A DNA stretch of 64,000 bases, from positions 3,098,501-3,162,500 of the forward strand of contig NZ_CP113162.1 of the NCBI RefSeq assembly GCF_029030725.1, read 5' to 3'. The position numbers were made by a program, and so were the translations under genes. A model generated the notes under the pieces. It searched no databases and was not told where the DNA came from. It saw only the letters and a program-made list of their open reading frames with translations. Below are positions 6,020 through 33,469 of this stretch, one piece after another (within the stretch, counting starts at the first letter, position 1; the number at the start of each line of letters is the position of its first letter). Source of the DNA: [Pseudomonas] carboxydohydrogena. GTDB taxonomy: Bacteria; Pseudomonadota; Alphaproteobacteria; Rhizobiales; Xanthobacteraceae.

Positions 6020-6023
6020 TCCT

Positions 6024-11687: not shown

Positions 11688-11691
11688 CGGG

Positions 11692-14292: not shown

Positions 14293-14312
14293 GTGCATGG
14301 GCTGGGTGTGGT

Positions 14313-14327
14313 TTGGCGGAAAGCGTC
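14313..14327 (+). repeat. Possible degenerate third att core
   Basis: TTGGCGGAAAGCGTC resembles the left att context (CTGGCGGAGAGAGCG followed by TC) with a 2-bp gap and one change. It lies 240 bp upstream of the integrase gene, where an att site would normally be. The match is short and imperfect, so this is tentative. The 14293-14566 spacer holds nothing else recognised. Confidence 0.3.
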
Positions 14328-14566
14328 ACTGAAAAGTCAGTTATGCTCGCGGCGCCAGAAAAACCCGTCAGTTCAACGCGCCTAAAGGCGCATTTATCAG
14401 CAGAACGCCACCCTTGCTGGCGAAGATCCTATTGCCGAGGGCGGCACCAATCCTGCCTGCAATAGCCACCGCAGCGTCATCATCATCTATCAGATTCCAC
14501 GCAAGTTCGTAGAATTTGAACTGAATCCGCTTCCGTCTATATCGCCGGAATGCGGAGTTTGTCGGC

Positions 14567-15766
14567 GTGGTTCACTTCAAAAGGCTCTCGGACAAAAAGA
14601 TTAGAAGCCAGCTTGAGCCTGGCCTCTATTCGGATGGTCTCGGCCTTTATCTTCGCGTCGGCACGGGCAATGCCAAAAGCTGGATTTATCGATATCGCGC
14701 CGGTGGGCGGTTGCGTGACATGGGGCTAGGGCCGCTTCACACGGTACCCCTCGTGGAAGCGAGGCGGCTTGCCGAGGAGCTTCGCGTTAAACGCCAAAAT
14801 AAAACCGACCCGCTCGCTGAACGCCGGCAAGCCGCGGAGGCGGCTGCACCCGCGCCACCCAAAACCATCATCACTTTTGAGCAGTGTGCCAAGGAATACG
14901 TTGTTTCCCATGCTTCCGGCTGGAAAAATGCCAAGCATGCGGCGCAGTGGACGTCGACGTTAGAAACTTACGTCTATCCCGTCTTCAAGAAGACCTCAGT
15001 CGAGGATATCGACGTCCACTTGGTCATGAAGGTGCTCCAGCCGATCTGGAACAAGAAGACCGAAACAGCTTCCCGCGTCCGCGGACGTATCGAGCGCATT
15101 TTGGATTGAGCTCGCGTCAAAAACCTGCGGACGGGCGATAACCCAGCGCGGTGGCAGGGGCATCTTAGCTTTCTGCTCTCACCTCGTAACAAGGTGGCGA
15201 AAGTCGTCCACCACGCCGCGCTTCCCATTGATGAAACGCCGCCATTAATGGCTCGCTTACGCTCGGAAGATTCCGTCACGTCGCGCGCACTCGAGTTTTG
15301 CATTCTAACCGCAAGCCGAACGAGTGAAACCCTGGAAATGAAGTGGGACGAACTTGATTTCGAGAACCGGCTTTGGACCATTCCTGCGGAGCGCATGAAA
15401 GCGGCGCGTGAACATCGCGTTCCGTTATCGGCAAGAGCGCTCATTATTCTTTCTGAAATGGAGAAGCTCCGGTTCAGCGATTACGTGTTTCCTGGTCTGC
15501 GCCGGAATCGACCCCTCAGTAATTCCGCGCTCGGAATGGCGCTGGGGCGCCACGGCCAGCCTGATGTAACCGCACATGGCTTTAGGTCTACATTCCGGGA
15601 TTGGGCGGCGGAGCGTACCGACTTCGCGAACGAGGTCGTCGAGATGGCCCTTGCTCACACAATCTCCAACAAGGTCGAGGCTGCCTACCGGCGTGGAGAT
15701 CTATTTGAGAAGCGCCGCAATCTTGCGCAGGCCTGGGCTGATTTCTGCGAACCCACCACTCTCTAG
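14567..15766 (+). pseudogene. int: Tyrosine integrase with in-frame nonsense codon
   Basis: One continuous 400-codon reading frame is interrupted only by TGA at 15107-15109. The first part (180 residues) has the DUF4102 arm-binding domain (LEPGLYSDGLGLYLRVG) and most of the core-binding domain. After the TGA the frame continues ARVKNLRTGDNPARW and then the catalytic domain, with Arg in TASRTSETLEMKW, HGFRSTFRDW (H-x-x-R) and the nucleophile Tyr in EAAYRRGDL. Family members have Trp (ILDWA) at the stop position, so a single TGG-to-TGA change explains it. Unless the codon is read through, the protein lacks its catalytic domain. Confidence 0.9.
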
Positions 15767-15848
15767 CCATCACCGCCTGTCTGCGTAGCAGGCAGCCTTT
15801 CTATATCCACCACCGGCAAAGGCCGGCTCGCGTACAGGAGAACTATCC

Positions 15849-16073
15849 ATGTCTAATTTGAACAATCGCGGTGCCATGTCCGTGAATGAGTTCGCTATTT
15901 GGGCCGCCATCGGCCGCACTACCGCCTGGAAGGAGATCAAGGAGGGACGCCTTCGTCCCGTCAAGGTTTGCGCTCGCACCATTGTTCCGATGGAGGAAGC
16001 CGAGCGTTGGCTTCGGTCATGCAGCACCGTTTTCAATACTTCAGATGGTTTCGCCCATGAGCCCACTCTCTAA
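15849..16073 (+). CDS. AlpA/excisionase-like DNA-binding protein
   Basis: A 74-residue protein with a winged-helix signature: SVNEFAIWAAIGRTTAWKEI, then GRLRPVKVCARTIVPMEEAERWL, the layout of AlpA/MerR-like excisionases that bend DNA at att sites or activate integrase genes. A GGAG lies 8-11 bp before the ATG. It follows the integrase by 83 bp on the same strand and is a likely recombination directionality factor for this island. Confidence 0.7.
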   Translation: MSNLNNRGAMSVNEFAIWAAIGRTTAWKEIKEGRLRPVKVCARTIVPMEEAERWLRSCSTVFNTSDGFAHEPTL

Positions 16074-16084
16074 GGAGCAACTCA

Positions 16085-16345
16085 ATGACGAACTCAAATC
16101 GGAAGTATGAGCGGCTCTACCTCTCAACCGACACTGACGATGTTCGCGTGCAAATACATGCGATTGTCGACAAAGGCCATTACGTCGAACGCCCAAGCGA
16201 ATATCAGCTTAAAATCGGCGCGGTAAATTATTATCCGCACACAGGAACGATCACTATTGATCGGAGCCGCCGTTACCCTCTTAAGGGAATCGACGCACTT
16301 CTCGAACTCCTCGAAAAGCAGCGCTCCAGATTCGTAACGCTATAG
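16085..16345 (+). CDS. Hypothetical protein, excisionase operon
   Basis: An 86-residue soluble protein, not recognised. It begins MTNSNRKYERLYLSTDTDD, with AAGGAG at 16072-16077, seven bases before the ATG. It lies 11 bp after the excisionase stop and is surely cotranscribed. The sequence shows alternating strands (VRVQIHAIVDKGHYVE, YQLKIGAVNYYP, GTITIDRS) and a C-terminal helix, suggesting a small beta-sheet fold. No function can be assigned. Confidence 0.6.
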   Translation: MTNSNRKYERLYLSTDTDDVRVQIHAIVDKGHYVERPSEYQLKIGAVNYYPHTGTITIDRSRRYPLKGIDALLELLEKQRSRFVTL

Positions 16346-16523
16346 CTGTAGGGCCTTTTGAAACTTGCGCCTGTCTTGACAGGCGCTTATTTTTAAAAAG
16401 CCCCATCAAGTCGTACGTGGACTCATACTCACCTAACGGTCAGTCATCAGATAGTCCGTAACGCACTGGGAGAAGGGACCGGGCGGGCCCCTCTGGAGAA
16501 GAGGGGCCAAATTTTTTGCCCGG

Positions 16524-17441
16524 CTAGCGCAAAGAAAACCCGGGCTGCATGCCCTGCTCTAATGTTTTGACTAGTTGCTGCAGCTCCCAACCACCAAAGT
16601 CTTCATTGTAAGGCTGCTTCGTTTTGCCACTCCAAAACTTCGAGTGAAACCTCGCTTGAGCTTGCGCGGTTTTACCGATGCTATGTGAAGCCCCGCACAG
16701 TTTCATGGGCGGGATCGGAAGAGCAGTTCTCGCTCTGAATAGTCGAAAGACCTGCCTCAAGGGCTTCCAAGAATATTGGTCACTTTCGTCTCGTTCGCAG
16801 CAGCCATCTGTATCGTCGTGCTGTTTCGTCACGTAACGAAACCAACCCCACGTCCTCTGGACGCCTGCATCCATTGTCTTTGGATGGCGATAAATCAAAC
16901 GAAACGCATCAACACGCACGTGCTGCCTGATCAAAACAGCAAGACTTTCTCTTGACCACTTTTCAAAGGCTTTGCGGTGCACCCCTTCGAGATTAATCAG
17001 GACATGTGAATGGAAACCGCGGCCCGGTGCATTTTCGTGGACATAGAGATAATGCATCTCCCATGAGATGCGCGAACGACCCCCCTGCCGTGCCCATTTC
17101 TGGGCCCGATGCAAGTACTGACACAACAGCCTCGCACCTCGATGCGGCTCGATTCCCATCAGCTCCCAGGCGATGACAAGATGCGTGTTCATCGGAGCCT
17201 GATAACGCCACAAAGCGAAAGCCAGAGCCTCGTAGAGCTTTCTAAACTCCCTCGTCGTCAACCCAGATGTTCGAGATGCAACCGGCGAGGGCTGTCTGAA
17301 CGGATTTGCTTGTGGTTTGGCGAATGTGCCGCCTTCATTCAGGGACGGTGCATTCTTCGCAATCTCGTCAAAGTACGCTTCTAGTTCATCCATCGACATC
17401 TCAACGATGCCATTGCTGCTCATTTTGAGATTCGTATTCAT
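16524..17441 (-). CDS. Putative HUH-type replication initiator (inovirus Gp2-like)
   Basis: A ~305-residue protein. Its central region has a His-x-His pair in GRGFHSHVLINLEG, preceded by a strand WEMHYLYVHE, and later a Tyr-x-x-Lys in WGWFRYVTKQ. This is the order expected for HUH endonucleases of the rolling-circle replication type (metal-binding HUH, then catalytic Tyr). The N-terminal ~60 residues look disordered. The ATG at 17441 is preferred over a GTG at 17462. On the minus strand, facing the integrase/excisionase genes, it could replicate or mobilise the excised island. Family assignment rests on these motifs alone. Confidence 0.45.
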   Translation of the reverse strand: MNTNLKMSSNGIVEMSMDELEAYFDEIAKNAPSLNEGGTFAKPQANPFRQPSPVASRTSGLTTREFRKLYEALAFALWRYQAPMNTHLVIAWELMGIEPHRGARLLCQYLHRAQKWARQGGRSRISWEMHYLYVHENAPGRGFHSHVLINLEGVHRKAFEKWSRESLAVLIRQHVRVDAFRLIYRHPKTMDAGVQRTWGWFRYVTKQHDDTDGCCERDESDQYSWKPLRQVFRLFRARTALPIPPMKLCGASHSIGKTAQAQARFHSKFWSGKTKQPYNEDFGGWELQQLVKTLEQGMQPGFSLR

Positions 17442-17537
17442 GTTCTCAAACCCCGCCAGCACTTGTCATCCTTCTTCCAGGATGGATTAACAGGATGGTT
17501 TGGCCGACGCTGGCGCGGTGCTCCGTTACGAGATTTT

Positions 17538-17726
17538 TTATCCGGCGGGGGGCAATAAGGTGGCTAGTAGGCGACTATAGTAACCATCGCCCATCGCCGC
17601 GATATTGATCACCTTCCGCAGTTTCGGGTCGTTTGTAAGCCAGAGGCATCTTTCATGAATAGCGCGTGCGCGACTCTCCGCGTCAGGGAATGAATTGATA
17701 AGGTCGAGAAGCTCGTTCTTAGCCAT
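17538..17726 (-). CDS. Small hypothetical protein
   Basis: About 62 residues from the ATG at 17726, which has AGGG seven bases upstream; an in-frame start at 17792 would add 22 residues. Mostly helical and charged (MAKNELLDLINSFPDAESR then a basic ERCLWLTNDPKLRK). Not recognised. It lies upstream of the Rep-like gene on the same strand and may be cotranscribed with it. Confidence 0.45.
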   Translation of the reverse strand: MAKNELLDLINSFPDAESRARAIHERCLWLTNDPKLRKVINIAAMGDGYYSRLLATLLPPAG

Positions 17727-17879
17727 TGAAGGCCCTTTCTTGATTTCAAAAATCGCCAGTCCGAAATCCGGGTCGTTGCGGCACACAACCACTTGAGTTA
17801 CCTCAACAATTTTCCTTATTCATAGATCGGATATCCAAAACGCTCGAAAACGCTTCCAAAAACGTTTTTGGAAGTTGGT

Positions 17880-18929
17880 TTAAACCTTGTCCGCAGCGCC
17901 AACAGGTTCTCGGCGCACGTACGGATCGCCCTTCTTTGCGCCAGTACGCAGAGCGACGGGCCAGTTCAAGACGCGACGTGAGCCAGGCGAGCCCCACGTC
18001 TGTATGAGAGCCGTACTGAAATTCCACCAGTCAACATTCGAGATAGAACCGCTCTCTTCCAGCCGCTTCACCACCGGCCACGTCTTCATGTGCTGGTATA
18101 AAGAGAAGAGATTCCACGCTGCTCGCATAAACAGACGCGACCGATAGTCATCGAAAACAGAACCGGCCACACAATTCGCGAAGGGAAAGTCCAGGCCTCT
18201 ATATGCATCCAGGAGCGCCTGTTCATCCGGCAACACAAAATGCAAGAGAGCGCTCTCAAATCCATCGTCCAGCACTTCATTGATAAGCTTGACGATGGTT
18301 TCATCCTTTGCTGGCTTCTTACGAGGCACAACATACAAAGGCATGTAGCCGAGCAGCACGACAACGCCATTCTCGCACAGCAGGCGCTTCGCTTCAGCTA
18401 TCGCAGCTTCAAGTCCGAAAAAGTGGCCTTGCTCAATCACAACCAAGGAGAATGTTTCGTCCGGAAAAGGCGTTCGTGGCAATTCTGCCAAGCGATACTC
18501 AATGCCTGGACGGATGACGTGCTCGCGCAAAATCCGGGGATGCCCATTCGGATTACGCAAATGGTTGACCACTGCAGCTTCCCCGCCCAACACCCTGGCT
18601 TTCAATGCTTCAACAATCAGCGGATCGGAATGCAGCACGGCGATATCGTATTGATGGGCTTCTGCGAATTGCGCTGCAAAAGCTCCTCCTCCACCTGACA
18701 TCAACAATGTCCGGCCTGCGACAGGCTTCATGCTGCGAATATGATCCACGAGCTCATAAGTAGCTTCTGGGCCTCCAAGCCGCGAAGCCAATTCCTGCTC
18801 GTGCTGGACCTCTGCCAACATCGGCACCGAGACCGGCCGAGCCGTCGCGGGTGCGGTTGCCACCCCCGTCAAATAGCGGAAGTTGGCCCAGCTGGTGGTT
18901 GCAGTTTGGGTAGATACGATCTTCGTCAT
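17880..18929 (-). CDS. Class I SAM-dependent methyltransferase-like protein
   Basis: A 349-residue cytoplasmic protein. A Rossmann-type methyltransferase core is suggested by a glycine-rich loop after a strand (TLLMSGGGGAFAAQFAEA near 85-102), an acidic end of strand 2 (LHSDP near 111), a motif-IV-like FSLVVIEQGHFFGLE near 165, and the strand VVVLLGYMP near 205. The substrate is unknown. The C-terminal ~130 residues (WNLFSLYQHMKTW and on) were not recognised. It lies between the Rep-like gene and a divergent PD-(D/E)XK nuclease. It has no visible target-recognition domain, so it is not clearly a DNA methylase. Confidence 0.55.
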   Translation of the reverse strand: MTKIVSTQTATTSWANFRYLTGVATAPATARPVSVPMLAEVQHEQELASRLGGPEATYELVDHIRSMKPVAGRTLLMSGGGGAFAAQFAEAHQYDIAVLHSDPLIVEALKARVLGGEAAVVNHLRNPNGHPRILREHVIRPGIEYRLAELPRTPFPDETFSLVVIEQGHFFGLEAAIAEAKRLLCENGVVVLLGYMPLYVVPRKKPAKDETIVKLINEVLDDGFESALLHFVLPDEQALLDAYRGLDFPFANCVAGSVFDDYRSRLFMRAAWNLFSLYQHMKTWPVVKRLEESGSISNVDWWNFSTALIQTWGSPGSRRVLNWPVALRTGAKKGDPYVRREPVGAADKV

Positions 18930-19498
18930 AGGTGATGTCCTTCTGTTTATGATGCAGAGGACGTCACCGCAGTCGCTGCGTGATGGCTTGAGACGGACGG
19001 TACCGATCCCTGCCCTATAGATTCAGATGAGGGCCCGAGATTTTGCGGGCTTTCGCGACAAAACTTGAAGTGTTGCCAAAACAACACGATTTTTGCTCAA
19101 AAATGGTATTCAGGGAGAGGTTTGCCGCCGATCGCAAAGACCTGCTCAAGGGAGGCGAGCCCCACGAGCACACCATTCCGTCGGCCGTAAAGCCCTCCAA
19201 ACAGGCTGATGGCAGGTCTTCCGGCAGATATTTGCCGCTAAGAGACAAGTCGAACAGGGCTTTTCAAACGGACCAAAGGCTCACTGCATCCCACGATATG
19301 GCCTGCCTCGCCGTAAGCAGACGCGCGAGAGCCGTTTCCATCTGGCACGCCGAAGCACGGCTTTCTTCGCATGGCAAAACTCGTCGCGCTCCTCTCCCGC
19401 ATAGCCATGCACACGGCAGATGACGTGCGACCAACAGTGACGATTGATCAAGAAGTTGAGTTCACGAAGTCGGAAGATCAACGCAACAACTGACCCAT
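18930..19498. other. Gene-free spacer between methyltransferase and nuclease
   Basis: About 570 bp between divergent genes. It must contain promoters for both, but none was clear. An open frame at 19043-19423 (+) has no protein-like composition and no recognised similarity, and is not called. Confidence 0.5.
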
Positions 19499-19538
19499 CA
19501 AGCTGAATCTCCTCCACTCTCAGAGGAGATTCAGCTTG
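19499..19538 (+). promoter_or_regulatory. Perfect hairpin enclosing the ribosome binding site and start codon
   Basis: CAAGCTGAATCTCCTC (19499-19514) and its exact complement (19523-19538) flank an 8-nt loop. The right arm begins with the Shine-Dalgarno GAGGAG (19523-19528) and ends with the TTG start codon (19536-19538) of the nuclease gene. In RNA, both the ribosome binding site and start would be base-paired. It could also be a protein operator. It is too exact and too well placed to be chance. Confidence 0.8.
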
Positions 19539-20666
19539 ACCACATCCACCACGTCCAATGCCATTGCCTCCTTGCCGCGGTGCCCGCTCGTTTCCGACGC
19601 GATCGCCAAAGAAAACAACGTCTATTTCGAGATCGACACGCGGTTTCGCCGCGCTGCACGCTTGCTGCAAGCCTTGTGGTTGAAAGATCATTCGATCGAG
19701 ACCGGCATTCATGTGCGCGGTGAAGGCGAAGACGCGGTTGTTATGCCGCTGGCGTCAAACCTCTCCAGCACCGCCGCCGCGTCCGGCAAAAACTTTCTCT
19801 CGTCAGCCATCCATGCATTCGTAAGGCAGCAGTTGATCCTGCGCGAAGATGGCGCCGCGATCGACGAGGAGCGCTTGTTCGGAAATGCACTGTCATCGAT
19901 GCCGCTGACGTTCAATCTGTTCGCGCCGCTCGCGATGGATCTTGACCTCGCCACGCGTGTTCTGAAAACGCTTTTCCCGACCTTCGTCGAGAAGGTCGAG
20001 GGCTTCTTGTTCGAGCACTCCCCCGGCCGCCGTGAGGAGCGCTTTCTGAATGACGGCACCGCTTTCGACCTCGCCGTTCAGATTATCACGCCAGACGGTG
20101 AGCCAGGAACGATCTTCGTCGAAACGAAACTCTCCGAAGACATGATGGGACCAGCAGCGCGGTTGCGTGACCGCTATGATGAAGTGTCCCGTTCATCCCG
20201 GCTCTTTGTCAATCCGGACAGTCCGCAGCTTCGTACGCTCGCACTCGAACAGCTCTGGCGCGAAAACATGCTGGCGCAACTTTGCGTCGATCACGGCATT
20301 ACGCAGCGCGCCGTCTTCGTCGGCATTGGTCCACACCTCAATCGACGTGTGATGGCTGCGTTTCGCGTCTTTCAGAACGAATTCATCCCGGAAGACGACC
20401 GTGACGACAATCGCGTCCCCTTCATTGGCCTCACCCTCGAAAGCGTCGTCGATGCCATCGGCACAGCTGGCGCAACCGAGCTGGCCCATAACCTCCGGGC
20501 GCGATACCTCGACTACGAGCGCATCTATCACTTGTGTCTGAGTTCGGCCGTCCCTGCCGAAATTGATTCTGCGCCTTCAAAATCAGTAACAGGTGACAAA
20601 ACTGTCCGAAAGCAGCTTGTCCAATTCCTGGCAAAAGGCTCCCGCGCTTCCTCGCGGAGGGCCTGA
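19536..20666 (+). CDS. PGN_0703-type putative restriction endonuclease (PD-(D/E)XK)
   Basis: A 376-residue predicted nuclease. The core is FDLAVQIITPDG followed by TIFVETKLSEDM around residues 175-205, a PD-(D/E)XK arrangement with Asp then Glu-x-Lys. The overall sequence resembles the PGN_0703 family of putative restriction endonucleases. The only credible start is TTG 19536, with GAGGAG seven bases upstream inside a hairpin. The stop is followed by the DUF2958 ATG with one base between, so they form an operon. No methylase is adjacent on the same strand; dcm lies 0.8 kb downstream. Nuclease activity is inferred. Confidence 0.7.
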   Translation: MTTSTTSNAIASLPRCPLVSDAIAKENNVYFEIDTRFRRAARLLQALWLKDHSIETGIHVRGEGEDAVVMPLASNLSSTAAASGKNFLSSAIHAFVRQQLILREDGAAIDEERLFGNALSSMPLTFNLFAPLAMDLDLATRVLKTLFPTFVEKVEGFLFEHSPGRREERFLNDGTAFDLAVQIITPDGEPGTIFVETKLSEDMMGPAARLRDRYDEVSRSSRLFVNPDSPQLRTLALEQLWRENMLAQLCVDHGITQRAVFVGIGPHLNRRVMAAFRVFQNEFIPEDDRDDNRVPFIGLTLESVVDAIGTAGATELAHNLRARYLDYERIYHLCLSSAVPAEIDSAPSKSVTGDKTVRKQLVQFLAKGSRASSRRA

Positions 20667-20667
20667 C

Positions 20668-21009
20668 ATGGCGCAGCTCGGTCTCTTAACGCTCGGTGAC
20701 CACGTCCAACTGCTCGTCAACGCGCTTAGCCCGGAACGCGACCATGCTCCGGTGTTCAAACTGTTCACACCAGACGCCAATACGACCTGGCTCATCAGCG
20801 AATGCGATCCGGATGATCCGGATCGCCTTTTCGGTCTCTGCGATCTCGGCCTCGGCTTTCCTGAACTTGGCTGGGTCAGCCTTAAGGAAATCGAGGGCGT
20901 TCGGGGCAAACTTGGGCTTCCTGTCGAACGCGATGTAAGCTTCGTCGGAGACAAACCTCTCTCCGCTTACGCTGCTGAAGCCCACCAACTCGGCCGCATT
21001 CAGGTTTAA
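20668..21009 (+). CDS. DUF2958 domain-containing protein
   Basis: A 113-residue acidic protein matching DUF2958: AQLGLLTLGDHVQLLVN, then the conserved PVFKLFTPDANTTWLISECDPDD and the GLGFPELGWVSLKEIE segment. These proteins are common on rhizobial plasmids and islands and have no known activity. The start is the ATG at 20668, one base after the nuclease stop; a longer in-frame version would lie inside the nuclease gene. The zinc-ribbon gene follows 3 bp later. Confidence 0.8.
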   Translation: MAQLGLLTLGDHVQLLVNALSPERDHAPVFKLFTPDANTTWLISECDPDDPDRLFGLCDLGLGFPELGWVSLKEIEGVRGKLGLPVERDVSFVGDKPLSAYAAEAHQLGRIQV

Positions 21010-21437: not shown

Positions 21438-22490
21438 ATGAAAACCAAGTACACAGCGATCGATTTGTTTTCCGGATGCGGTGGCCTCACGCTAGGATTG
21501 AAGCTCGCTGGCTTCAAAGTTCTTGCTGCCATCGAAAAAGATACCCTTGCGGTACAGACTTACAAGGCGAACCATGCCGATGTTGTCGTGTGTCACGACG
21601 ATATCGTCGCCGTGAAAGCGGGGTCGCTTCGTAAACGTTTGAATCTTGCTGTTGGCGAGCTTGATCTCTTAGCGGGTTGTCCGCCTTGTCAGGGCTTCTC
21701 TGCCTTGCGCACGCGAAACGGCGCGACACAAAAGCGCGACAAAAGAAACGGCCTCATCACCGAGATGATGCGCTTTACGCGCGCATTCCGGCCGAAGACC
21801 GTCATGATGGAAAACGTGCCGGGGCTTGCGGAGCACTGGTCGTTTAAGAAGCTCTGCCGCGATCTTCGAAATCTCGGTTATCGAGTCGAATGGGACATCA
21901 AGGACGCCCGCTACTATGGCGTGCCCCAACGGCGAAAGCGGTTAATCCTGGTTGCCGGACACCGTTTCGATGTTCCGCTTGCCAAGGAAACGAACAACAT
22001 AAAAACGGTTTGGGAAGCAATCGGCGGATTGAAGGCTCCCGGTCATAGCCGTGACAAGCTACAAAATCTGACGGAAAACCGGAGCGAGAAAGTTCTTAGC
22101 TTGATACGAGCAATTCCGAAAGATGGCGGTAGCCGGACCGATCTACCGAAATCGTGGCAACTTGCCTGTCATCAACGAACGGACGGCTTCAAAGATATAT
22201 ACGGGCGCATGGCATGGCACGAGCCAGCACCCACGATCACGGGCGGATGCTTCAATCCTTCCAAGGGACGGTTTCTTCATCCGGAGGCAAACCGCGCTAT
22301 CACGCTGCGGGAGGCAGCCATCCTTCAATCATTTCCGCGCCGGTATCGCTTCCCTGCGGACAGAAGCAAGGAATCTATCGCACTAATGATCGGCAATGCG
22401 CTTCCGCCCACCTTCATTCGCCGCCACGCTAGTGAAATCGCCAAGAGTTTGGCTAATGCAAAGGCGAGATCTCGTCGAGCCGCCCGCTGA
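21438..22490 (+). CDS. dcm: DNA (cytosine-5)-methyltransferase
   Basis: A 350-residue C5-cytosine methylase with all main motifs in order: I AIDLFSGCGGLTLG (8-21), IV AGCPPCQGFSALR with the catalytic Cys (~79), VI MMENVPG (~118), VIII YYGVPQRRKRL (~158), and X IALMIGNALPP (~322). The target recognition region lies between VIII and IX (~180-270). A Vsr repair gene follows, as usual for Dcm-type systems. With the Z1 ATPase and 149-residue gene on the other side, this resembles the Dcm-Vsr-Z1 restriction neighbourhoods described for MORC/Z1 systems, but no MORC ATPase is present here. The upstream Shine-Dalgarno is weak. Confidence 0.93.
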   Translation: MKTKYTAIDLFSGCGGLTLGLKLAGFKVLAAIEKDTLAVQTYKANHADVVVCHDDIVAVKAGSLRKRLNLAVGELDLLAGCPPCQGFSALRTRNGATQKRDKRNGLITEMMRFTRAFRPKTVMMENVPGLAEHWSFKKLCRDLRNLGYRVEWDIKDARYYGVPQRRKRLILVAGHRFDVPLAKETNNIKTVWEAIGGLKAPGHSRDKLQNLTENRSEKVLSLIRAIPKDGGSRTDLPKSWQLACHQRTDGFKDIYGRMAWHEPAPTITGGCFNPSKGRFLHPEANRAITLREAAILQSFPRRYRFPADRSKESIALMIGNALPPTFIRRHASEIAKSLANAKARSRRAAR

Positions 22491-22546
22491 CCTCTTCGGG
22501 ATCGAAAATTCCAGCGAATAAGGCGATATGATTAAGGTAGAGGCAG

Positions 22547-22960
22547 ATGACCGACGTTTTCTCTGCCCGTAAGCGCTCTGAGATTATGTCCCGCGTGAGA
22601 GGGACTGGGAACAAGGCGACTGAGCTTCGCCTCGTTGCTATTTTTCGCGCTAACGGGATTACAGGATGGCGGAGGCGATCACCGGTTTTTGGGAAGCCCG
22701 ACTTTGTATTTCCAAAGGAGAAAGTTGCGGTATTTGTCGACGGCTGCTTTTGGCATTGCTGTCCGCGCCACGGAACCCTACCGAAGACAAATCGAGATTT
22801 TTGGCAGCAAAAGCTAGAACGGAATCGTCAACGAGATCGGTTGGTCAATAGAACTTTAAAGAAGAAAGGGTGGGCATTAATACGACTGTGGCAGCACGAG
22901 CTACAAGCGCCAGAGCATATCGTTCGACGCATCACTCGCATTCTCCGGCCCAACAATTAG
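22547..22960 (+). CDS. vsr: Very short patch repair endonuclease Vsr
   Basis: A 137-residue endonuclease that nicks beside T:G mismatches made by deamination of 5-methylcytosine. The family core is visible: RSEIMSRVRGTGNKATELRL at the start, GKPDFVFPKEKVAVFVDGCFWH (metal-binding Asp and the DGCFWH motif), CCPRH, and the WALIRLWQHEL end. It starts 57 bp after the dcm stop on the same strand and serves its mutagenic side-product. Confidence 0.93.
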   Translation: MTDVFSARKRSEIMSRVRGTGNKATELRLVAIFRANGITGWRRRSPVFGKPDFVFPKEKVAVFVDGCFWHCCPRHGTLPKTNRDFWQQKLERNRQRDRLVNRTLKKKGWALIRLWQHELQAPEHIVRRITRILRPNN

Positions 22961-23011
22961 TCTCCCCATACACTCAATGCTCGCGCTCTAGAAGGAGCAA
23001 ATACAGGGAAG

Positions 23012-24214
23012 ATGCGCTCGTTGAATTTGATCGAGGATTTCGCGCGCAACCCGTCCGAAGAGGCAATGGCGTCCGTTGTCGCTTCGGCAATCGGAGATTC
23101 GTGGGGGGTCGATGAGATCGGCCGACTTGCGGAGGTCCTGGCGCACAGCGGAACCACTCTTGCCTTTCCCGACGATATTGTGACTGCGGATGTCGCTTCG
23201 ACCGGGGGGCCATCATCACTGTCGACATTGCTGTGCCCGCTCTACTTACGCAACCTCGGCTTCCAAATCCCGAAGCTCGGTGTGCCGGGACGGCCAGCGG
23301 GAGGTATCGATATTCTTGCCCAAGTCCCCGGATACAAGGCCAACCCAGATGCGCCTACAGCGCGGGCTGTTTTGGATCGATGCGGCTACGTGCACTTTCT
23401 CGCCGGGCCCGATTTTGCTCCGCTAGATGCCATTCTCTTCCGATATCGTCAAAGGTCGGGCGCGCAAGACGTACCTCCTTTGGCCGTGGCCAGCATCCTT
23501 GCGAAAAAGATTGCATGCGGCATCAAGTCCGCAGGGCTTGATGTGCGGGTAGCACCTCATGGAAACTTTGGGGGTGACTTCGCCACAGCAAGGCAGACAG
23601 CCAAATCATTCTGCGTGGCTGCAAAGGCAGTGGGAATAGCGGCCGTCGCAGGATTGACCGATGCACGCACACCCTACCAACCATACATCGGGCGAGGAGA
23701 GTCATTGTTGGCCCTCCGCAAGCTGATCGACGATAGTTCAGACCAATGGCTTCTCGAGCATGCCGATCGCTGCCTGCTACTCGCGGCAAACGTCGGCGCC
23801 TTGCACCCAGGCCACGCACCGCTTGTCAAAGAAATCGGGAAGCCGTTCTTCGAGAACATCGTCGCACAAGGCGGCACAGAGGCCGGCTTCCTTGACAAGG
23901 TAGAATCAATTGCGCGAGCACCACGGGTAGAGATTGCCGCACAGCAAGGTGGCTTTTTCTCGCTCGACCTTGCTGGATTGCGTTCAGTGTTCGCAACCGC
24001 GAACGCGTCTACAGACAAAGAGCCATTCCCGGACAACCTCGGCCTGATTCTCCGTAAAAGACCGGGCAGCTTTGTGAAAAATGGAGAAATCCTCGCATCG
24101 GTTCGCGCGACTACCGGCGTCTGGGCTGCTTGCGCGGAGCCCTTGACGAAATGCTTTCGCATCACGGAGCTGATGGACTACGCTTTGGGTTTGGAGGAAT
24201 TTGTCCGTGCCTAG
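23012..24214 (+). CDS. Thymidine-phosphorylase-like protein with altered phosphate site
   Basis: A 400-residue homologue of pyrimidine nucleoside phosphorylases (DeoA/PyNP/AMP phosphorylase fold). The glycine-rich DVASTGGPSSLSTLLCPLYL (~59-78) aligns with the family DKHSTGGVGDK segment, but the phosphate-binding Lys-His is Val-Ala. GVPGRPAGGIDILAQ replaces the usual TGGTLDKLE segment. The residues aligning with the pyrimidine-site Arg, Ser and Lys appear kept (FRYRQR; ASILAKK). It probably binds a nucleoside or nucleotide but may not do phosphorolysis. It lies 51 bp after vsr and overlaps the kinase gene at its end, so it belongs to the defence cluster, not to nucleoside salvage. Confidence 0.75.
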   Translation: MRSLNLIEDFARNPSEEAMASVVASAIGDSWGVDEIGRLAEVLAHSGTTLAFPDDIVTADVASTGGPSSLSTLLCPLYLRNLGFQIPKLGVPGRPAGGIDILAQVPGYKANPDAPTARAVLDRCGYVHFLAGPDFAPLDAILFRYRQRSGAQDVPPLAVASILAKKIACGIKSAGLDVRVAPHGNFGGDFATARQTAKSFCVAAKAVGIAAVAGLTDARTPYQPYIGRGESLLALRKLIDDSSDQWLLEHADRCLLLAANVGALHPGHAPLVKEIGKPFFENIVAQGGTEAGFLDKVESIARAPRVEIAAQQGGFFSLDLAGLRSVFATANASTDKEPFPDNLGLILRKRPGSFVKNGEILASVRATTGVWAACAEPLTKCFRITELMDYALGLEEFVRA

Positions 24215-27200
24215 TTATTGTTGCTTCTTTTGTCCCGCAGCGACTTATAACGACAATGGACTAACTGATCCGTGCCCGAGTTGTGGCCGGCCATTTGGTT
24301 TCCCGCTGAGCAGTATCCCGGCCGAAATAGGCCCATTTAAGATTCTGCGCCCCTTGGGTCGCGGCTTTTATGCCGCGACATATGTGGCCGAGCGCAAAAC
24401 GGGACTGCGCAACAAATCCGTTCTGAAGGTTACGCCAAAAATATTTTATGAGTTCTTCCCAGGGAAAGATTTCGAAGAAGAATGCCTGTTGCACCGTGAT
24501 GTGGCGGAGGGAACGGAGCACCTCGTTAAAATCCGGGACATGTTTCCGGATGTAGAGGTCCAATTTGACAACGTGTCGCTATCATGTTGCGTTGCGGAAC
24601 TCGATTTTGTCGACGGTCCTCTCCTCACGGACTACTTCGATGACGAGCAGGAGGTTTCGGCAGCCATTGCAGCACAGATGGCCATTGATCTCTTGCGCCT
24701 GCGCGAAGAGCTTGAGCGCAAGCAGGTGTTTCATAATGATTTACATGCCGGCAACATCATCGTCGAGCGGCTCAAGAAGGACAGCTTTCGCGCCGACGCT
24801 GTAGACCCATCCATACGAGCAGTTGCCATTGATCTTGGTTCTGCCGCGACACAAACCAAGAGCGATCCCGCCAGGCAACGCGAAGGAGATATCAGCCGAA
24901 TTGCCGAGCACATTGCGCGGTTGAGCGCACGACTCTTGGCCAGCCCGGATCAGGTGTCCGACCATGATTTTCGGTTGGCGAGCACGTTGCAAGACATTTT
25001 TCAGGTCTTGGCCGCACCGGCAGAGAATACGCGATTTCCATCTGCGCAAGATCTCATCCGCCAAGTCCGACTCGCGTATGAGATGATACCACGTCATTCG
25101 TGGCGGTCGTGGCGGCAGCCGCTGGCCTTGACGAGTTTTGGTTCGGCATACAACGCGCTGACTCTTGAACCGTGGCACGTGCCAGCTCTTCTGATAGATC
25201 CAGAAGGAACATGGCTGAAGCAAATCAGCACACCAGGTCCACAGATCATCACCGGCATGCGCGGCTGTGGCAAAACCATGTTGCTGCGCGCGCTTCAGTT
25301 TCATGCGCGCGCTTCGCAGGCGCGTGGAGAAACCGCCGACGCCGTCATTGGGCGCATCAGCGGTGATGGATATATCGGCCTGTTCGTCTCAGCTCAAAGA
25401 CTTATAGACCGACAAGATCCCGGGCAAACGGTAAACGCCGATCCGTTTGCGCGCTTAATACTGGCATACGCCGTCGAGGCGGTTCGCTCGATTATGCACT
25501 TGCGCGACATCCGCTCTGCTGGTGTCAATGAGCATGCCCATAAGGTAATTGGCAGGGCATTGACCGATATCCTCACTAATTCCGACGAGTTGGGAGATGC
25601 TATCGATCTCGATGATTTCGATGCCCGCCTGCGAAAAGCACTCGTACAGCACAGCCAGCCGGGCAATAGTCTTCGCTTACAAGTTAATCCGAGCGACGCG
25701 TTTATTCATATGGCTGAGAGCATTCGAGTGTGTTCCCCACACTGGATGACTGGCCGCGTACTATTCTTGCTTGATGATGTTTCAACTCGCTACCTTAAGG
25801 GCGGCCCGATTCGGGAGCTGCTTTCCGCGTTGCTGTTCCAACACCCCGTTTGCGCATTCAAGATCACATCCGAAGTGCAAACAATGGAATTGGAGCTCAA
25901 AACGCCCGGAGAGAATTTTCCTGCCCGGGAGGGTCGCGATTATTCCGTATTCGACCTCGGCTCCGAAGTATACGACAAGATAAAAGGGCCGCAGGGAAAG
26001 CAATTCGTCGAACGAATCCTGGAGCAACGCGCCGACCACTTTTCCGCTCACCCGCGCGCGACACCATCGCAACTGCTCGGCGACGAATCCATGGAAACTA
26101 TCGCGCGGGAAATCGCCGAAAGCGCTTCCACTTCAAGTAAACGCAAGGAAGTTTATCGCGGCATCACTGCACTTGCTCATGTCTGTGTTGGTGACATCGG
26201 CGATGTTATCAGCCTGTATGAACGGATCATCAAGGCGGCAAACGGTCGAATTCCTGTGCCGACGCAAGTCCAATGCGATTGCTTTCAAGATCACTGCTCG
26301 CATCGCCTCTACGATCTCAACCGACGTAGGGGCGAATTGAAAGATGTGGCTCGGTCGTTCGCGGAAGCGTCGTACGAGCTGCTCCTCAAGTCTTTCAAGG
26401 AAGCCAAGAAGAATAAAAAGACGGCGCGCCGGCTACGACAATATTCGTCCATCTATGTACGCGTAACCACAGGCGACACGGGCAAGCAGATGGCCCAGCT
26501 TCGCGATCTAATCGACGCTGGCGTGTTTGTATTCACTGGCGGGAGCCCGCGAACCAAGACAAAGGACTCCGATCCCATTCTCCAATTCAAGCTGACTTTT
26601 AGGCGCATTTACGGGCTAACCAATTTCATCGGCCTCGCCGAAAGAGATCGGTTCGAATTGTCCGGAGCAAACCTGGAGGAATGGCTCGCAAATCCGGCAG
26701 CTGGAAAAGAAATTCTGATGCGAAATCTTGGAGGACCTCTTGCGGAAGAGGACGACGTCGAGGCGACGGAGCTGGCCATAGAGCCAGCGGCCGCGACGCC
26801 TACTCCCAAAATCACAATGGACCTCTTTGAGAACTTACCACCAGCACAGCCCGAGCAACCAAAAACTCCAGAAGAGCTCCCGCCGGATTCTGGGCGTCTT
26901 CCAACGCACAGCATCGATGTCAAGATACTCAACGAGTCGGGGGTCGCCGCAGCGGAGCTGTCACAGATTGTCATCGGCCTCGGCTTTGAGGATCGCACCT
27001 TGGCGTCTGTGCGCGCCCTGACAAAAGCACTGCCGCCGACCAAAGTGCTTGCCATTCAATACGAGGATGCGGGCCGATCGAAGGAGATTCTGGACAGCCT
27101 CAAGAGTTGGGGCGCCGAGGTCGACATCATTTCATATCGCACCGCGATAGCAGACGGATTGCCGCTCACAAATCAGCCAACCTTGATCGATGTAACAGGA

Positions 27201-27878
27201 TTGGCAAAGCCGGTCATATTTCACGCTGTCCGTGATGGCTTGCAGAAATCGGGAGCCGTTCTAGTGGCTCATACGCAAGCGAAGAGTTATTATCCGACTG
27301 ATCGAGACATGAAAGCCTTGCTCAAGGCGGAAGAACAGCATAATCGGCAAAAATTCTTCGATACCCTCTCTGGCATTCTGACAGGCGAAATTGGACCTTA
27401 CGAATGTCTGCCGTTACTTCAGGCAGATGCCGACGAAACAAGACGCAATGTGTTGTTTGCATTCGCATCTCCAAAACATGAACGCCTTCTCTCATTGATT
27501 GATAACCACGTAATCGATCGTCTTGAGGTGGTTGCGCCGGAAGGAACCACTTCCCGAAATCGGGTTGCCAAGCAGATTGCCGAGATTGCAGCTACAGACA
27601 GCGCCAGCTCGGAGGTAACTTACATCAACTCGGATGATCTTGAAAAAGCGACTACATTCCTTCTTAGGGGTTTCAACAAGTGGTATGTCCGCCAAGGCTT
27701 TAATTTTGAAATCGGGCTCACTGGCTCGAAAATGGAGGCAGTCGCATCCGCCGCGGTCTCTTCGGTTTGCAAAATTACGCAATGTTGGTACGTGCGGCCG
27801 ACGAAATTTGACGCAGCTAGATTTACAAAAGGTGCGGGCGATACGCGCTACTTCCGACTCGACCGGACTGACGTTTGA
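24207..27878 (+). CDS. Zinc ribbon - protein kinase - ATPase - CARF-like fusion protein
   Basis: A 1223-1225-residue multidomain protein. In order: zinc ribbon (C8-x2-C11, C25-x2-C28); a Ser/Thr-kinase-like domain with G-rich loop ~53-58, Lys76, HNDLHAGN (178-185) and DLG (211-213); an AAA/ORC-like ATPase with Walker A GMRGCGKT (352-359) and Walker B LFLLDDVS (521-528); a Cys-rich VQCDCFQDHC patch; a Pro-rich linker (~870-920); and a C-terminal Rossmann-like domain from LSQIVIGLGFEDR, ending near a LTGSKMEAVASAA motif reminiscent of CARF sensors. All catalytic residues are present. The start is GTG 24207 (GGAGG nine bases upstream) or TTG 24201; both lie inside the phosphorylase gene, so translation is coupled. 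It ends 20 bp from the convergent Z1 gene. Confidence 0.7.
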   Translation: MPSYCCFFCPAATYNDNGLTDPCPSCGRPFGFPLSSIPAEIGPFKILRPLGRGFYAATYVAERKTGLRNKSVLKVTPKIFYEFFPGKDFEEECLLHRDVAEGTEHLVKIRDMFPDVEVQFDNVSLSCCVAELDFVDGPLLTDYFDDEQEVSAAIAAQMAIDLLRLREELERKQVFHNDLHAGNIIVERLKKDSFRADAVDPSIRAVAIDLGSAATQTKSDPARQREGDISRIAEHIARLSARLLASPDQVSDHDFRLASTLQDIFQVLAAPAENTRFPSAQDLIRQVRLAYEMIPRHSWRSWRQPLALTSFGSAYNALTLEPWHVPALLIDPEGTWLKQISTPGPQIITGMRGCGKTMLLRALQFHARASQARGETADAVIGRISGDGYIGLFVSAQRLIDRQDPGQTVNADPFARLILAYAVEAVRSIMHLRDIRSAGVNEHAHKVIGRALTDILTNSDELGDAIDLDDFDARLRKALVQHSQPGNSLRLQVNPSDAFIHMAESIRVCSPHWMTGRVLFLLDDVSTRYLKGGPIRELLSALLFQHPVCAFKITSEVQTMELELKTPGENFPAREGRDYSVFDLGSEVYDKIKGPQGKQFVERILEQRADHFSAHPRATPSQLLGDESMETIAREIAESASTSSKRKEVYRGITALAHVCVGDIGDVISLYERIIKAANGRIPVPTQVQCDCFQDHCSHRLYDLNRRRGELKDVARSFAEASYELLLKSFKEAKKNKKTARRLRQYSSIYVRVTTGDTGKQMAQLRDLIDAGVFVFTGGSPRTKTKDSDPILQFKLTFRRIYGLTNFIGLAERDRFELSGANLEEWLANPAAGKEILMRNLGGPLAEEDDVEATELAIEPAAATPTPKITMDLFENLPPAQPEQPKTPEELPPDSGRLPTHSIDVKILNESGVAAAELSQIVIGLGFEDRTLASVRALTKALPPTKVLAIQYEDAGRSKEILDSLKSWGAEVDIISYRTAIADGLPLTNQPTLIDVTGLAKPVIFHAVRDGLQKSGAVLVAHTQAKSYYPTDRDMKALLKAEEQHNRQKFFDTLSGILTGEIGPYECLPLLQADADETRRNVLFAFASPKHERLLSLIDNHVIDRLEVVAPEGTTSRNRVAKQIAEIAATDSASSEVTYINSDDLEKATTFLLRGFNKWYVRQGFNFEIGLTGSKMEAVASAAVSSVCKITQCWYVRPTKFDAARFTKGAGDTRYFRLDRTDV

Positions 27879-27898
27879 TCCAAAGATGTCGGTATTCG

Positions 27899-29926
27899 CT
27901 ATTCAAAGCTAAAGGCAATGGCATAGTTTCCGGTGGGGAAGCGCACCTGGGGCAGCCAGACCGCTTCGCCTTTAGCACTCTTCTTTAGCCGATACATAAA
28001 AAGCGTTACGGCATCGGTTGGCACTTCCGTATCTTCTCCGCCGCTGTAGAAGCCTTGCGTCTCGCGACGCGATGCTTCCAATTCGCGATCGCGGCTGACA
28101 CGAATGTATGCTTTGTTGCCCTTTAACACTTCCATCTTTTCCAACGCCGCACCGATTGTCCTCGCGCTCCAAAGCTCGGTGCCAAGTGTGGGATCGGCCT
28201 CACACTTCTGAATCAATTCGATAACGGATGGCACGTCCGTCACATAATAAAGCCGCGAGCCGTCATAGCGGAGGAGCTTGGCATCGAGCCATTGTGTTGC
28301 CTCCATCGTCGCAGGTGTACGAAGTGGATAGCGCGGGTTCACCCACCCGCCAGCCACGTAAACACCGATAGCGTTCGGGTCCAGCACATTGCGCCGCGTC
28401 GCTTGCAGAGGCGAAGACAGGCAAATGCCCTCAAATTCACCTTGCGGGTGACGCTCGATAAGCGCGCGAAGAGCCTTCTCCATTTGGTGAATGATACGAA
28501 AATGCTCGGCGAGTTTATCCGGCAGGAACAGTCGGGTAACCCCAATGTGCTTCTGTCGATAGCCATACATGCGCGCGTGTTGCAGCACAGTATCGGAATT
28601 GGGCCGCTTTGGGTTCCTGCCGTAGTAACTCGTAATCAGGTTCGGAATCGTCACGCCGCGGCCGAGCTTATTTCCCCCCACAAAAATGCTGTAAGGATGA
28701 TCGGGGACAATTTCCTCATGGGAATTAGAATTGATCTCCTTGATACTCGCTGCTGGCAGAAGAAAGGAAATCTTCTGCATAACGGCTTCGAACGGCGGAA
28801 GACCAGGCTCGGTCTCGGTCAGGTTATGGTAGGCTGCAGTTAGGTCGCTACGAAGTTTCGTATACGGAGGCTTTGCCGGTTCGGCCAGGGTGTTGACCAT
28901 GTCTTCCCGAAACCGTTCGAACAATTCGACGATATGGCGATGATCAATCTTTGTATGGCTGATGTGGCAGAGAAACGAGAAGTTCTCTTGTGGGAATTGT
29001 ATATTCTTTGCACCTGCGGCAACAAAGAAGGTCAGCAATGCTTCGCGGATACCAGCCGGAAGACGATGCGTCGGACGGGGTTGATGTCCCGATTTAAGCT
29101 CATCGACTTCATCGATATCGACGGGCACTAGAAGTTTTGAATCATCCTCGAAGAAAGCCTCGCCTCCGACGTAACCCGGCCCCGGAGTGCTGAGTACCGT
29201 AAACGAAGGTCGATAAGGATGATCCGGGGTCTGCAAAAAGAGAGCCTGCGGCGTTGCCGTGACTTGTAAATAAGTGTTGGTTCTGAAAAAGGCTCTGAAA
29301 TCGGAAATCAACTTGTTGATCGTGCTGATCTCGTTCGTGCTCTTCGCAGCATTCTTTTGGGTGTGCGTATTGAGGCTTGCTTGATCCGCTTCGTCATCAA
29401 TGATCAGTGCGGGAAGCCCGCGCGCGCCGTTCGCAGCACCAATCTTTCGAAACGCCTCGATGAGGCTAGACAGATGATCCGAGTTCTTGGAGCAGACGAC
29501 AACAAAAGGCGACGTCCGCAATTGCCGCTCGAAAGCAGGGCCATCCCACTCCGATTTTCCAAATACCTTCAGTCCGCGCAATTGGCTTCGAATTCTGCGA
29601 AGGGTTTGCGTATAAAGAGGGTTTAGATCAGACGTCAGAATGATGATGCATTTGAAGCCATTATCGACGGCCATGGCGGTGGTAATGGCGATAACGCTAG
29701 TCTTCCCGCTTTGGATAAGACCATAAAGAAGCCCATAGCTGGGCCTCTCATCGCCGGACACAGGATCAATCGCGTACTCAAGAATACTTGCGGCCCGTTC
29801 CGCAATAACGTGAAGAGAGGCAGGATCGGAGATTTCATTGGCAAGTGCACTCAAAGCTTCCGTCGTGTGCAACCCATCTCGGATGATCTCCCGATTGCGA
29901 ATGGGAGCGGCGGTTCTAAGCTGCAT
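27899..29926 (-). CDS. Z1 domain ATPase (superfamily 2-like)
   Basis: A 675-residue P-loop protein of the Z1 family. The P-loop is YGLIQSGKTSV (~72-82), Walker B ALIIDDEADQASLN (~175), motif III VTATPQALF (~228), and the Z1-typical FVGGNKLGRGVTIPNL and QHARMYGYRQ segments (~415-460, motif VI-like). Z1 ATPases are known from Dcm-type restriction clusters, where they are thought to remodel DNA. The ATG at 29926 has GGAGAG six to seven bases upstream and overlaps the preceding gene by 11 bp; an in-frame start at 29953 is deeper inside that gene. It runs convergent to the kinase fusion. Confidence 0.85.
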   Translation of the reverse strand: MQLRTAAPIRNREIIRDGLHTTEALSALANEISDPASLHVIAERAASILEYAIDPVSGDERPSYGLLYGLIQSGKTSVIAITTAMAVDNGFKCIIILTSDLNPLYTQTLRRIRSQLRGLKVFGKSEWDGPAFERQLRTSPFVVVCSKNSDHLSSLIEAFRKIGAANGARGLPALIIDDEADQASLNTHTQKNAAKSTNEISTINKLISDFRAFFRTNTYLQVTATPQALFLQTPDHPYRPSFTVLSTPGPGYVGGEAFFEDDSKLLVPVDIDEVDELKSGHQPRPTHRLPAGIREALLTFFVAAGAKNIQFPQENFSFLCHISHTKIDHRHIVELFERFREDMVNTLAEPAKPPYTKLRSDLTAAYHNLTETEPGLPPFEAVMQKISFLLPAASIKEINSNSHEEIVPDHPYSIFVGGNKLGRGVTIPNLITSYYGRNPKRPNSDTVLQHARMYGYRQKHIGVTRLFLPDKLAEHFRIIHQMEKALRALIERHPQGEFEGICLSSPLQATRRNVLDPNAIGVYVAGGWVNPRYPLRTPATMEATQWLDAKLLRYDGSRLYYVTDVPSVIELIQKCEADPTLGTELWSARTIGAALEKMEVLKGNKAYIRVSRDRELEASRRETQGFYSGGEDTEVPTDAVTLFMYRLKKSAKGEAVWLPQVRFPTGNYAIAFSFE

Positions 29927-30365
29927 TCTCGCTCTCCGCCGCTTCGACACCAAAGGCCAACGCTGGCCATTTACCGAGCGATACCTTTCGCTTTAACTCG
30001 CCACCGCCTCCCCAAACCGTGTAACTATGGTTATGCTTGCGGGATGCGGCGATCCAACCCGGCTTGCTCCCAAGTAGGTCGCACCCTTGATCCCAATCAA
30101 TCCCACACACACCGTCGCTACCACACACCAAACCGAAAACCAGCCGTCGATACTTGGCGGCCATACCGATCGACCGCTCTACGTCTTCTTGGTCGAACGT
30201 AAAGCGCCAAGGCGACCTCTCTTTGGTTGTGTACTTAATGAGAAGAAAGCTGTCGTCATTTAAGACGTATCCGAGCGACCCAAGCTTACGGATCGACTGG
30301 CAGCGCACGTCCTCAAGTATCGGGATGACAGCAGCGCCGTGATAATAGGCCGACTTATCAAGCAT
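29916..30365 (-). CDS. Hypothetical protein cotranscribed with Z1
   Basis: A 149-residue soluble protein, not recognised. Features seen: SFLLIKYTTKERSPWRFTF near 39-57, a hydrophobic strand LVFGLVCGSDGVCGIDW near 75-91, and a basic GELKRKVSLGKWPAL end. The alternation of strands with charged IKY and an Asp-rich segment could be a degenerate nuclease-like fold, but no catalytic set can be claimed. Its stop overlaps the Z1 start by 11 bp (ATGCAGCTTAG), so the two are translated together and probably act together. Confidence 0.6.
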   Translation of the reverse strand: MLDKSAYYHGAAVIPILEDVRCQSIRKLGSLGYVLNDDSFLLIKYTTKERSPWRFTFDQEDVERSIGMAAKYRRLVFGLVCGSDGVCGIDWDQGCDLLGSKPGWIAASRKHNHSYTVWGGGGELKRKVSLGKWPALAFGVEAAESENAA

Positions 30366-30787
30366 GCGAGCAAACCACTAATGAAGCTAATAATTTCATT
30401 CTGCAAGTTTTCGTTGGAAAGGCAAATAACCACTTGGATTTTGCGCCCCCATGTGCCGTGAGGAAATCGTAAAGTAGGGCAATCGGCTGGACAGGCGGCT
30501 GCTGTCTAATATCCTGATAATGAAGTGGTTTTAAGGACGAAAGATCTATTCCTACGGGACGTGCACGGTTGGCCACTTGTCCATATGAATGTAAAAAACT
30601 AGGCACCCTTGTAGACGCCCACCAGCCTAGGTCTCGACCGCAACAACCTCAAAATAGAACTCGCAGAGAATTTGTAATTAATAAGCATGCAAACCACCTG
30701 TTAAGCGATGGAAAGGGCTTACCCCCTGAGACTGCGGCTTAAACTTTTCCAATGTCTGCTTCGGGTGAAAGGCGGATGTTCGGCCGA
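30366..30787. other. Gene-free spacer upstream of the Z1 operon
   Basis: About 420 bp, A+T-rich, with no protein-like reading frame (an open frame at 30358-30606 on the minus strand has no recognisable composition). It presumably carries the promoter of the Z1 operon. No hairpin or repeat stood out. Confidence 0.5.
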
Positions 30788-30997
30788 TTATTCCTGTAAC
30801 AATCTCGGAAGAGGCACCGATAGAGCATCGGCGATTCTTGCCATAACAGATAAACTCGGATTGCGTTTACCTCGTTCAATACCGCCCACATAAGTCAGAT
30901 CGATCTCCGCCTCGAATGCGAGGCGTTCCTGCGTCATTTTCCGCTGCTGACGCAATTTCCGTACGTTTTTTCCGAATATCAAGCACCAATCCCGCAT
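30788..30997 (-). CDS. XRE-family transcriptional regulator
   Basis: A 69-residue Cro/C1-type helix-turn-helix protein: FGKNVRKLRQQRKMTQERLAFEA followed by the recognition helix DLTYVGGIERGKRNPSL and ARIADALSVPL. That is nearly the whole protein, the size of restriction-modification controller (C) proteins. It lies upstream of the Z1 operon on the same strand, and symmetrical sites lie just before its start. It probably times expression of the dcm/Z1 cluster or of the divergent exported proteins. Confidence 0.85.
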   Translation of the reverse strand: MRDWCLIFGKNVRKLRQQRKMTQERLAFEAEIDLTYVGGIERGKRNPSLSVMARIADALSVPLPRLLQE

Positions 30998-33378: not shown

Positions 33379-33393
33379 CTGGCGGAGAGAGCG
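33379..33393 (+). repeat. tRNA-proximal attachment site (att direct repeat)
   Basis: CTGGCGGAGAGAGCG, identical to 6005-6019. On the minus strand it is the 3' end of tRNA-Ser, including CCA. The integrated island thus leaves the tRNA gene whole. Confidence 0.85.
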
Positions 33394-33469
33394 GGATTCG
33401 AACCCGCGATACGGTTTCCCGTATACACACTTTCCAGGCGTGCGCCTTCAACCACTCGGCCACCTCTCC
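33380..33469 (-). tRNA. tRNA-Ser (anticodon GGA)
   Basis: On the minus strand the gene begins GGAGAGGTGGCCGAG and ends in an encoded CCA, 90 nt long with the long variable arm usual for tRNA-Ser. The acceptor 5' strand GGAGAGG pairs with TCTCTCC. The anticodon loop CTGGAAA gives GGA, reading UCC and UCU codons. The T-loop GGTTCGAATCC is intact. Its 3' end is the integration site of the island to its left. Confidence 0.95.

Follow-up and report, generated by a model that had tools for sequence, protein, structure and literature searches.

A putative two-gene module of a thymidine phosphorylase-like protein and a kinase-ATPase-CARF fusion, associated with m5C restriction-modification genes

We analysed a 64,000-nucleotide stretch of the [Pseudomonas] carboxydohydrogena genome (contig NZ_CP113162.1, positions 3,098,501 to 3,162,500, hereafter the window), which carries a gene for a protein resembling thymidine and pyrimidine-nucleoside phosphorylases, termed TPL, directly followed by a gene for a large fusion protein, termed FUS. 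FUS combines a zinc ribbon, a Ser/Thr/Tyr kinase, an ORC/CDC6-like AAA+ ATPase and a C-terminal CARF region, and the pair sits beside genes for a Dcm-type C5-cytosine DNA methyltransferase and a Vsr mismatch endonuclease. Our comparison of related loci indicates that TPL and FUS are one translationally coupled two-gene module. We consider it very probable that this is a conserved defence-type module that works with 5-methylcytosine (m5C) restriction-modification (R-M). For non-CRISPR CARF-kinase proteins, whose architecture was published in 2014, a constant partner, TPL, and a constant neighbour, the C5-cytosine methylase, would provide the first concrete handle on their function.

Recurrence of the TPL-FUS pair and its methylase neighbour

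Thirteen FUS loci were compared, comprising the window, one in genome G287, L006 to L015, and L016 on a Loktanella plasmid. They came from a sample of the phylum, then a collection-wide scan, which gave ten more loci, and a plasmid search, which gave one. In 12 of the 13, TPL is the gene immediately 5' of FUS, so that the pair is found in eleven loci besides the window and FUS in twelve. This arrangement recurs far beyond chance. The TPL stop and FUS start share an exact 8-nt overlap, GTGCCTAG in the window, in 10 of the 12 TPL-FUS loci; the exceptions, L010 and L011, both have interrupted TPL frames. The original prediction had noted an overlap of the two genes. The overlap is real, but the likely start of FUS is GTG 24207 and not TTG 24201; GTG 24207 yields the 8-nt overlap common to the relatives. 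Residue numbers of FUS given here nevertheless count from TTG 24201 (1225 aa).

FUS is rare, with 2 carriers among 398 genomes sampled from the phylum. Full-length matches were found in 1 of 369 genomes in the class of a Pseudomonas relative and in 1 of 396 genomes in the phylum of L010, the match in each case being the genome used as the centre of the sample. No TPL without FUS was observed among 392 genomes of the family. In ten carrier genomes the TPL profile separates the TPL proteins, at 430-650 bits, from ordinary phosphorylases, at 48-92 bits, and a dN/dS of about 0.16-0.17 points to purifying selection on TPL. Relatives were absent from viral contigs, as were FUS relatives from phage records, where FUS alone was searched. 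On plasmids we found no TPL relatives, and the FUS search gave the single Loktanella locus. There (L016, 11664-21354) FUS adjoins a Pua-like/metallophosphoesterase protein, a Dcm-type methyltransferase and NaeI. In G287 a 247-aa HNH-like gene with no Pfam match at E 0.01 lies directly 3' of FUS (L004, 19226-19966).

The constant neighbour of the pair is a Dcm-type methyltransferase. It is present in each of the 11 loci whose flanks are long enough to judge, at 11-2031 nt from TPL-FUS or, in L016, from the unpaired FUS; contig ends truncate L008 and L014, which stand outside this count of few and partly related loci. The original prediction proposed looking for the pair away from dcm, and its claim of a real pair tied to Dcm and Vsr withstood this check. 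The methylase-linked loci span Pseudomonadota and other phyla, and most TPL-FUS loci also contain Vsr. PF00145 genes number 20 over the roughly 55 Mb of the carrier genomes, and the locus methylase is the only one in G778, G782, G783, G784, G785 and the window's own genome (G000), where it is the sole PF00145 match at E<=1e-20. Pairwise divergences are also correlated, with r of 0.94 for TPL and FUS, 0.84 for the methylase and FUS and 0.79 for the methylase and TPL (Mantel p<=1e-4, host phylogeny not removed). The association of TPL-FUS with m5C R-M cassettes of several kinds is well supported.

Predicted properties of TPL and FUS

TPL matches the thymidine phosphorylase profile with an E value of 8e-27 and 94 bits, far below the equivalog cut-off of 269 bits, and gave no Pfam or PADLOC match. 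The structural model (pLDDT 88.7) adopts the NP-II fold, with a TM score of 0.85 to the pyrimidine phosphorylases 1brw and 4x46. A TrpD-like identity was rejected, as the corresponding TM score was about 0.5.

In the E. coli thymidine phosphorylase the base is held by R171, S186 and K190 (PMC5238616). The equivalent residues in TPL, R146, S161 and K165, are invariant in all 12 sequences, as mapped by profile alignment at about 20% identity. The phosphate ligands of the E. coli enzyme we take to be K84, S86, S95, S113 and T123. The equivalents of K84, S113 and T123 are lost in 12 of 12 TPLs, being replaced by V/L/I, G/A and G respectively (V61, G90 and G98 in the window), and the equivalent of the active-site His85 is alanine in every one (A62 in the window). 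With the base residues kept and much of the phosphate site and the histidine lost, we infer that TPL binds a uracil- or thymine-like base and should not carry out normal phosphorolysis. TPL thus resembles the NP-II phosphorylases (1brw, 1tpt) in fold and in its Arg-Ser-Lys base site, but differs in lacking three of the five phosphate ligands and the histidine and in being found with FUS only. We lean slightly towards TPL being a non-phosphorolytic sensor.

FUS matches the PADLOC profile PDLC01925, 'CARF6--CARF_STK_AAA', with E=0 and 1480 bits over residues 5-1222 of 1225. The catalytic residues of the kinase (K76, HNDxHxxN and IDLG) and of the AAA+ domain (TGMRGCGKT and LLDD) are invariant in 10 of 10 FUS proteins. 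For the C-terminal model the top match in the Protein Data Bank was Can1 (6sce, Z 13.7 over 237 residues, root mean square deviation 4.0), followed among others by Csm6 (Z 11.2), the Cam1 CARF (Z 9.1) and the Cap5 SAVED domain (Z 8.4). We therefore model the C-terminus as a Can1-like tandem CARF, in agreement with the nucleotide-sensor-type domain foreseen by the original prediction. A profile comparison of both halves of the region gave no support for an internal duplication, so the description as 'tandem' rests on the model. FUS shares this single-chain fold with the Can1 and SAVED sensors of type III CRISPR and CBASS; in those systems the effector is a nuclease, whereas FUS has a kinase and AAA+ domain.

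Cyclic oligoadenylate made by Cas10 was considered as a ligand and is unlikely in the window's genome, because Cas10 matches there were confined to sub-cut-off hits of the PF22335 family; a clear Cas10 was present solely in G785.

Distant relatives of FUS also occur in split form. In L021 (G967, 5787-12536) an 829-aa kinase-ATPase and a 357-aa CARF-like protein, which may belong to a sister system, adjoin a methyltransferase-HNH fusion and an N6/N4 DNA methylase. In L028 (G1237, 8104-13504) genes for proteins of 857 aa and 338 aa precede an unknown gene of 182 aa and then DruA. The presence of split relatives near an N6/N4 methylase or DruA suggests that the tie of kinase-ATPase-CARF proteins to DNA modification or defence is broader than the m5C branch.

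The CARF-kinase-AAA+ fusion had seemed new when first noticed in the window, but a 2014 paper had already presented it as a small family, probably involved in kinase signalling (Makarova et al. 2014, PMC4012209). FUS matches this family end to end, with the same order of zinc ribbon, S/T/Y kinase, AAA+ with a P-loop arginine, and CARF. The main text of that paper names no phosphorylase-like partner, gene overlap or Dcm/Vsr link for the family. A full-text literature search gave no description of such a partner or of an m5C-restriction link, the 2020 CARF survey (10.1093/nar/gkaa635) and supplements lying outside its scope. What is newly described here is apparently the partnership of the known fusion with TPL and its link to m5C restriction. 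The combination of an ORC/CDC6-type ATPase and a kinase working with a DNA methylase is also reminiscent of BREX/Pgl, with its BrxC ORC-Cdc6 ATPase and PglW kinase. However, the block has a C5-cytosine methylase where BREX has an adenine methylase, and a CARF sensor is fused in; PglZ and PglX/BrxX had no matches among the proteins of the block.

Exchangeable restriction genes, alternative explanations and a possible mechanism

The restriction genes beside the pair differ between loci. L005 and L015 encode a GHKL/HEF_HK protein and a response-receiver protein, and L006 and L007 an OLD-like ATPase, all identified by profiles. L009 and L011 have an OLD-like ATPase as judged from likeness of length and N-terminus in the gene list, L010 a MutL-like protein with Z1, and L016 NaeI. 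The original prediction had placed the Z1 protein and its 149-residue partner (U149) of the window in the same unit as TPL and FUS, and this part is not supported. Besides the window, Z1 occurs in one TPL-FUS locus only (L010), BLAST found U149 in none of the others, and Z1 with a U149 relative is present without TPL or FUS on Calothrix and Nostoc plasmids. A Rhizobium gallicum plasmid likewise carries Vsr-Z1-Dcm without TPL-FUS; a 148-aa gene there was considered as a U149 relative and rejected as unrelated. From these gene contents, the block is better read as a conserved core of Dcm, usually Vsr, TPL and FUS with an exchangeable restriction part, here Z1, U149 and an XRE-type R-M control protein, than as one seven-gene system.

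Restriction cassettes of Dcm, Vsr, helicase and GHKL proteins were described in 2008 (Iyer et al. 2008, PMC2292703). The window cassette shares with them the C5-cytosine methyltransferase, Vsr and a helicase-type ATPase, Z1, but adds TPL-FUS and has no GHKL or MutL ATPase; no HATPase match was found in the window block, whereas such ATPases (MORC/MutL-like) are present in L005, L010 and L015. L010, with its MutL-type ATPase and Z1, is distantly similar to MZA. The window Z1 scores 93.6 bits against the MzaC profile, whose cut-off is 1500.

Our best explanation as a whole, tentatively held, is that TPL-FUS acts as a kinase/AAA+ switch which is gated by a pyrimidine or a nucleotide and is joined to m5C restriction, although several observations weigh against it. 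Loktanella L016 has FUS without TPL despite containing Dcm and NaeI, and together with the interrupted TPL frames of L010 and L011 this suggests that TPL may be dispensable. The equivalents of S86 and, as threonine, S95 are kept in TPL, so that it might still bind anions to some extent and have an unusual activity, and the pocket alignment is of low identity. Some of the 13 loci are related to one another, as L007 and L013 are, and as R-M genes cluster in defence islands the co-occurrence with them will be inflated. Such clustering could even account for the whole association, with TPL-FUS working on its own as an abortive or signalling defence. The varying restriction partners and the multi-system island of the window (an AbiE pair, type III R-M and PDDEXK_13) would fit this, but the neighbour is always a C5-cytosine methylase. 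Often the genome has no other such gene, and the methylase at the locus diverges in step with TPL and FUS. We regard a self-standing system as unlikely. We give no greater likelihood to TPL being an active nucleoside-degrading enzyme, which would remove thymidine or a modified pyrimidine nucleoside and so starve phage replication or make a base or sugar signal for the CARF. Its fold, base triad and two retained phosphate-site residues are compatible with activity, yet the losses at K84, H85, S113 and T123 in all 12 sequences and the score far under the equivalog cut-off speak against it.

TPL-FUS could instead regulate the R-M cassette rather than sense phage, delaying or blocking self-restriction, for instance under low methylation or low nucleotide pools. 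Such a role agrees with the presence of Dcm in every judgeable locus and of Vsr in most, the locus already includes an R-M control protein, and AAA+ and kinase proteins can serve as assembly switches (BREX BrxC/PglW, PMC12839542). With exchanged restriction parts, however, a single regulator must fit several unlike nucleases, and we consider this less likely still. That all seven genes (Dcm, Vsr, TPL, FUS, Z1, U149 and the XRE-type gene) are one defence system is very improbable; the compact facing layout and the Rhizobium gallicum grouping of Dcm, Vsr and Z1 would favour it, but the scattered occurrence of Z1 and U149 described above does not.

In the proposed mechanism, Dcm would mark host DNA and the exchangeable part, here Z1 and U149, would attack unmarked DNA. 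Both the trigger and the kinase target in what follows are ones that we infer. Rather than a catabolic phosphorylase, TPL may be a subunit that senses or processes a pyrimidine nucleoside or nucleotide signal, and this signal would rise upon cutting and degradation of phage or host DNA. TPL could act on FUS directly, or via a nucleotide to which the Can1-like tandem CARF binds. The AAA+ domain might then be switched into assembly on DNA and the kinase turned on, and phosphorylation of its target would either stop growth, as a back-up abortive response, or license restriction. It is rather unlikely that this chain, from pyrimidine signal to growth stop or licensed restriction, is correct in every step. 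Slightly more doubtful again is the idea that a phosphorolysis-dead pyrimidine phosphorylase serves a kinase/AAA+/tandem-CARF switch as its sensor, or as a subunit processing the signal, so that nucleosides from DNA breakdown signal infection to m5C restriction, a nucleoside-triggered immunity without a dedicated cyclase. If true, nucleotide sensing and protein phosphorylation would form a second layer on ordinary methylation-based restriction. Our results suggest an undescribed sensing add-on to bacterial anti-virus defence. TPL, as a small, soluble and probably base-binding protein, and the restriction context offer a place to look for a phenotype.

Gene layout and surrounding defence island

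The genes were present at the places and spacings given by the original prediction, with 51 nt between Vsr and TPL and 20 nt between the facing stops of FUS and Z1. Dcm, Vsr and Z1 all score above curated profile cut-offs.

Table 1. Features of the TPL-FUS block and neighbouring genes (window coordinates)
Feature	Position	Strand	Basis or remarks
Dcm-type C5-cytosine DNA methyltransferase, 350 aa	21438..22490	+	TIGR00675, 166 bits (cut-off 100.65); motifs PCQGFS, ENV, QRRKR, GNALPP
Vsr mismatch endonuclease, 137 aa	22547..22960	+	TIGR00632, 115 bits (curated cut-off 97.85)
TPL, thymidine/pyrimidine-nucleoside-phosphorylase-like, 400 aa	23012..24214	+	Sub-cut-off match to thymidine phosphorylase; model
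FUS, zinc ribbon, Ser/Thr/Tyr kinase, ORC/CDC6-like AAA+ ATPase, tandem CARF	24207..27878	+	PDLC01925
FUS/TPL overlap, 8 nt	24207..24214	+	Likely FUS start GTG over TPL stop TAG
FUS kinase domain	24327..25100	+	About residues 43-300; Gly loop LGRGFY, K76, HNDLHxxN, IDLG
FUS ORC/CDC6-like AAA+	25143..26129	+	PF24389, residues 315-643; Walker A TGMRGCGKT (Arg in P-loop), Walker B LLDDVS
FUS C-terminal tandem CARF (modelled)	26883..27875	+	Model pLDDT 89.8 over C-terminal 331 residues
Z1-domain SF2 helicase-type ATPase	27899..29953	-	PF10593, E 1.9e-34; Walker GLIQSGKT; convergent to FUS
U149, 149-aa Z1-partner protein without assigned fold	29916..30365	-	Relatives encoded next to Z1 on plasmids of Calothrix and Nostoc
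XRE-type R-M control (C) protein, 69 aa	30788..30997	-	PDLC03665, E 3.6e-19
AbiEi/AbiEii pair	7613-9492		
Type III R-M Mod and Res	9819-14292		
PDDEXK_13/REase-ARP gene	19536-20666		
DUF2958	20593-21009		

Left of Dcm the window contains a dense defence island (6256-20666). The AbiE pair adjoins a gene for a 436-aa protein starting MPMKIFWSWQSD (6256-7566), which has no Pfam or PADLOC match. On the other side of the block, tRNA-Ser(GGA) (33380-33469) forms the right edge of a low-GC stretch; in a search for an attachment-site duplicate, a 25-nt stretch from its 3' end was not found again within the window. A tyrosine integrase is present within the island as two reading frames (14567-15109 and 15194-15766) and is possibly interrupted.

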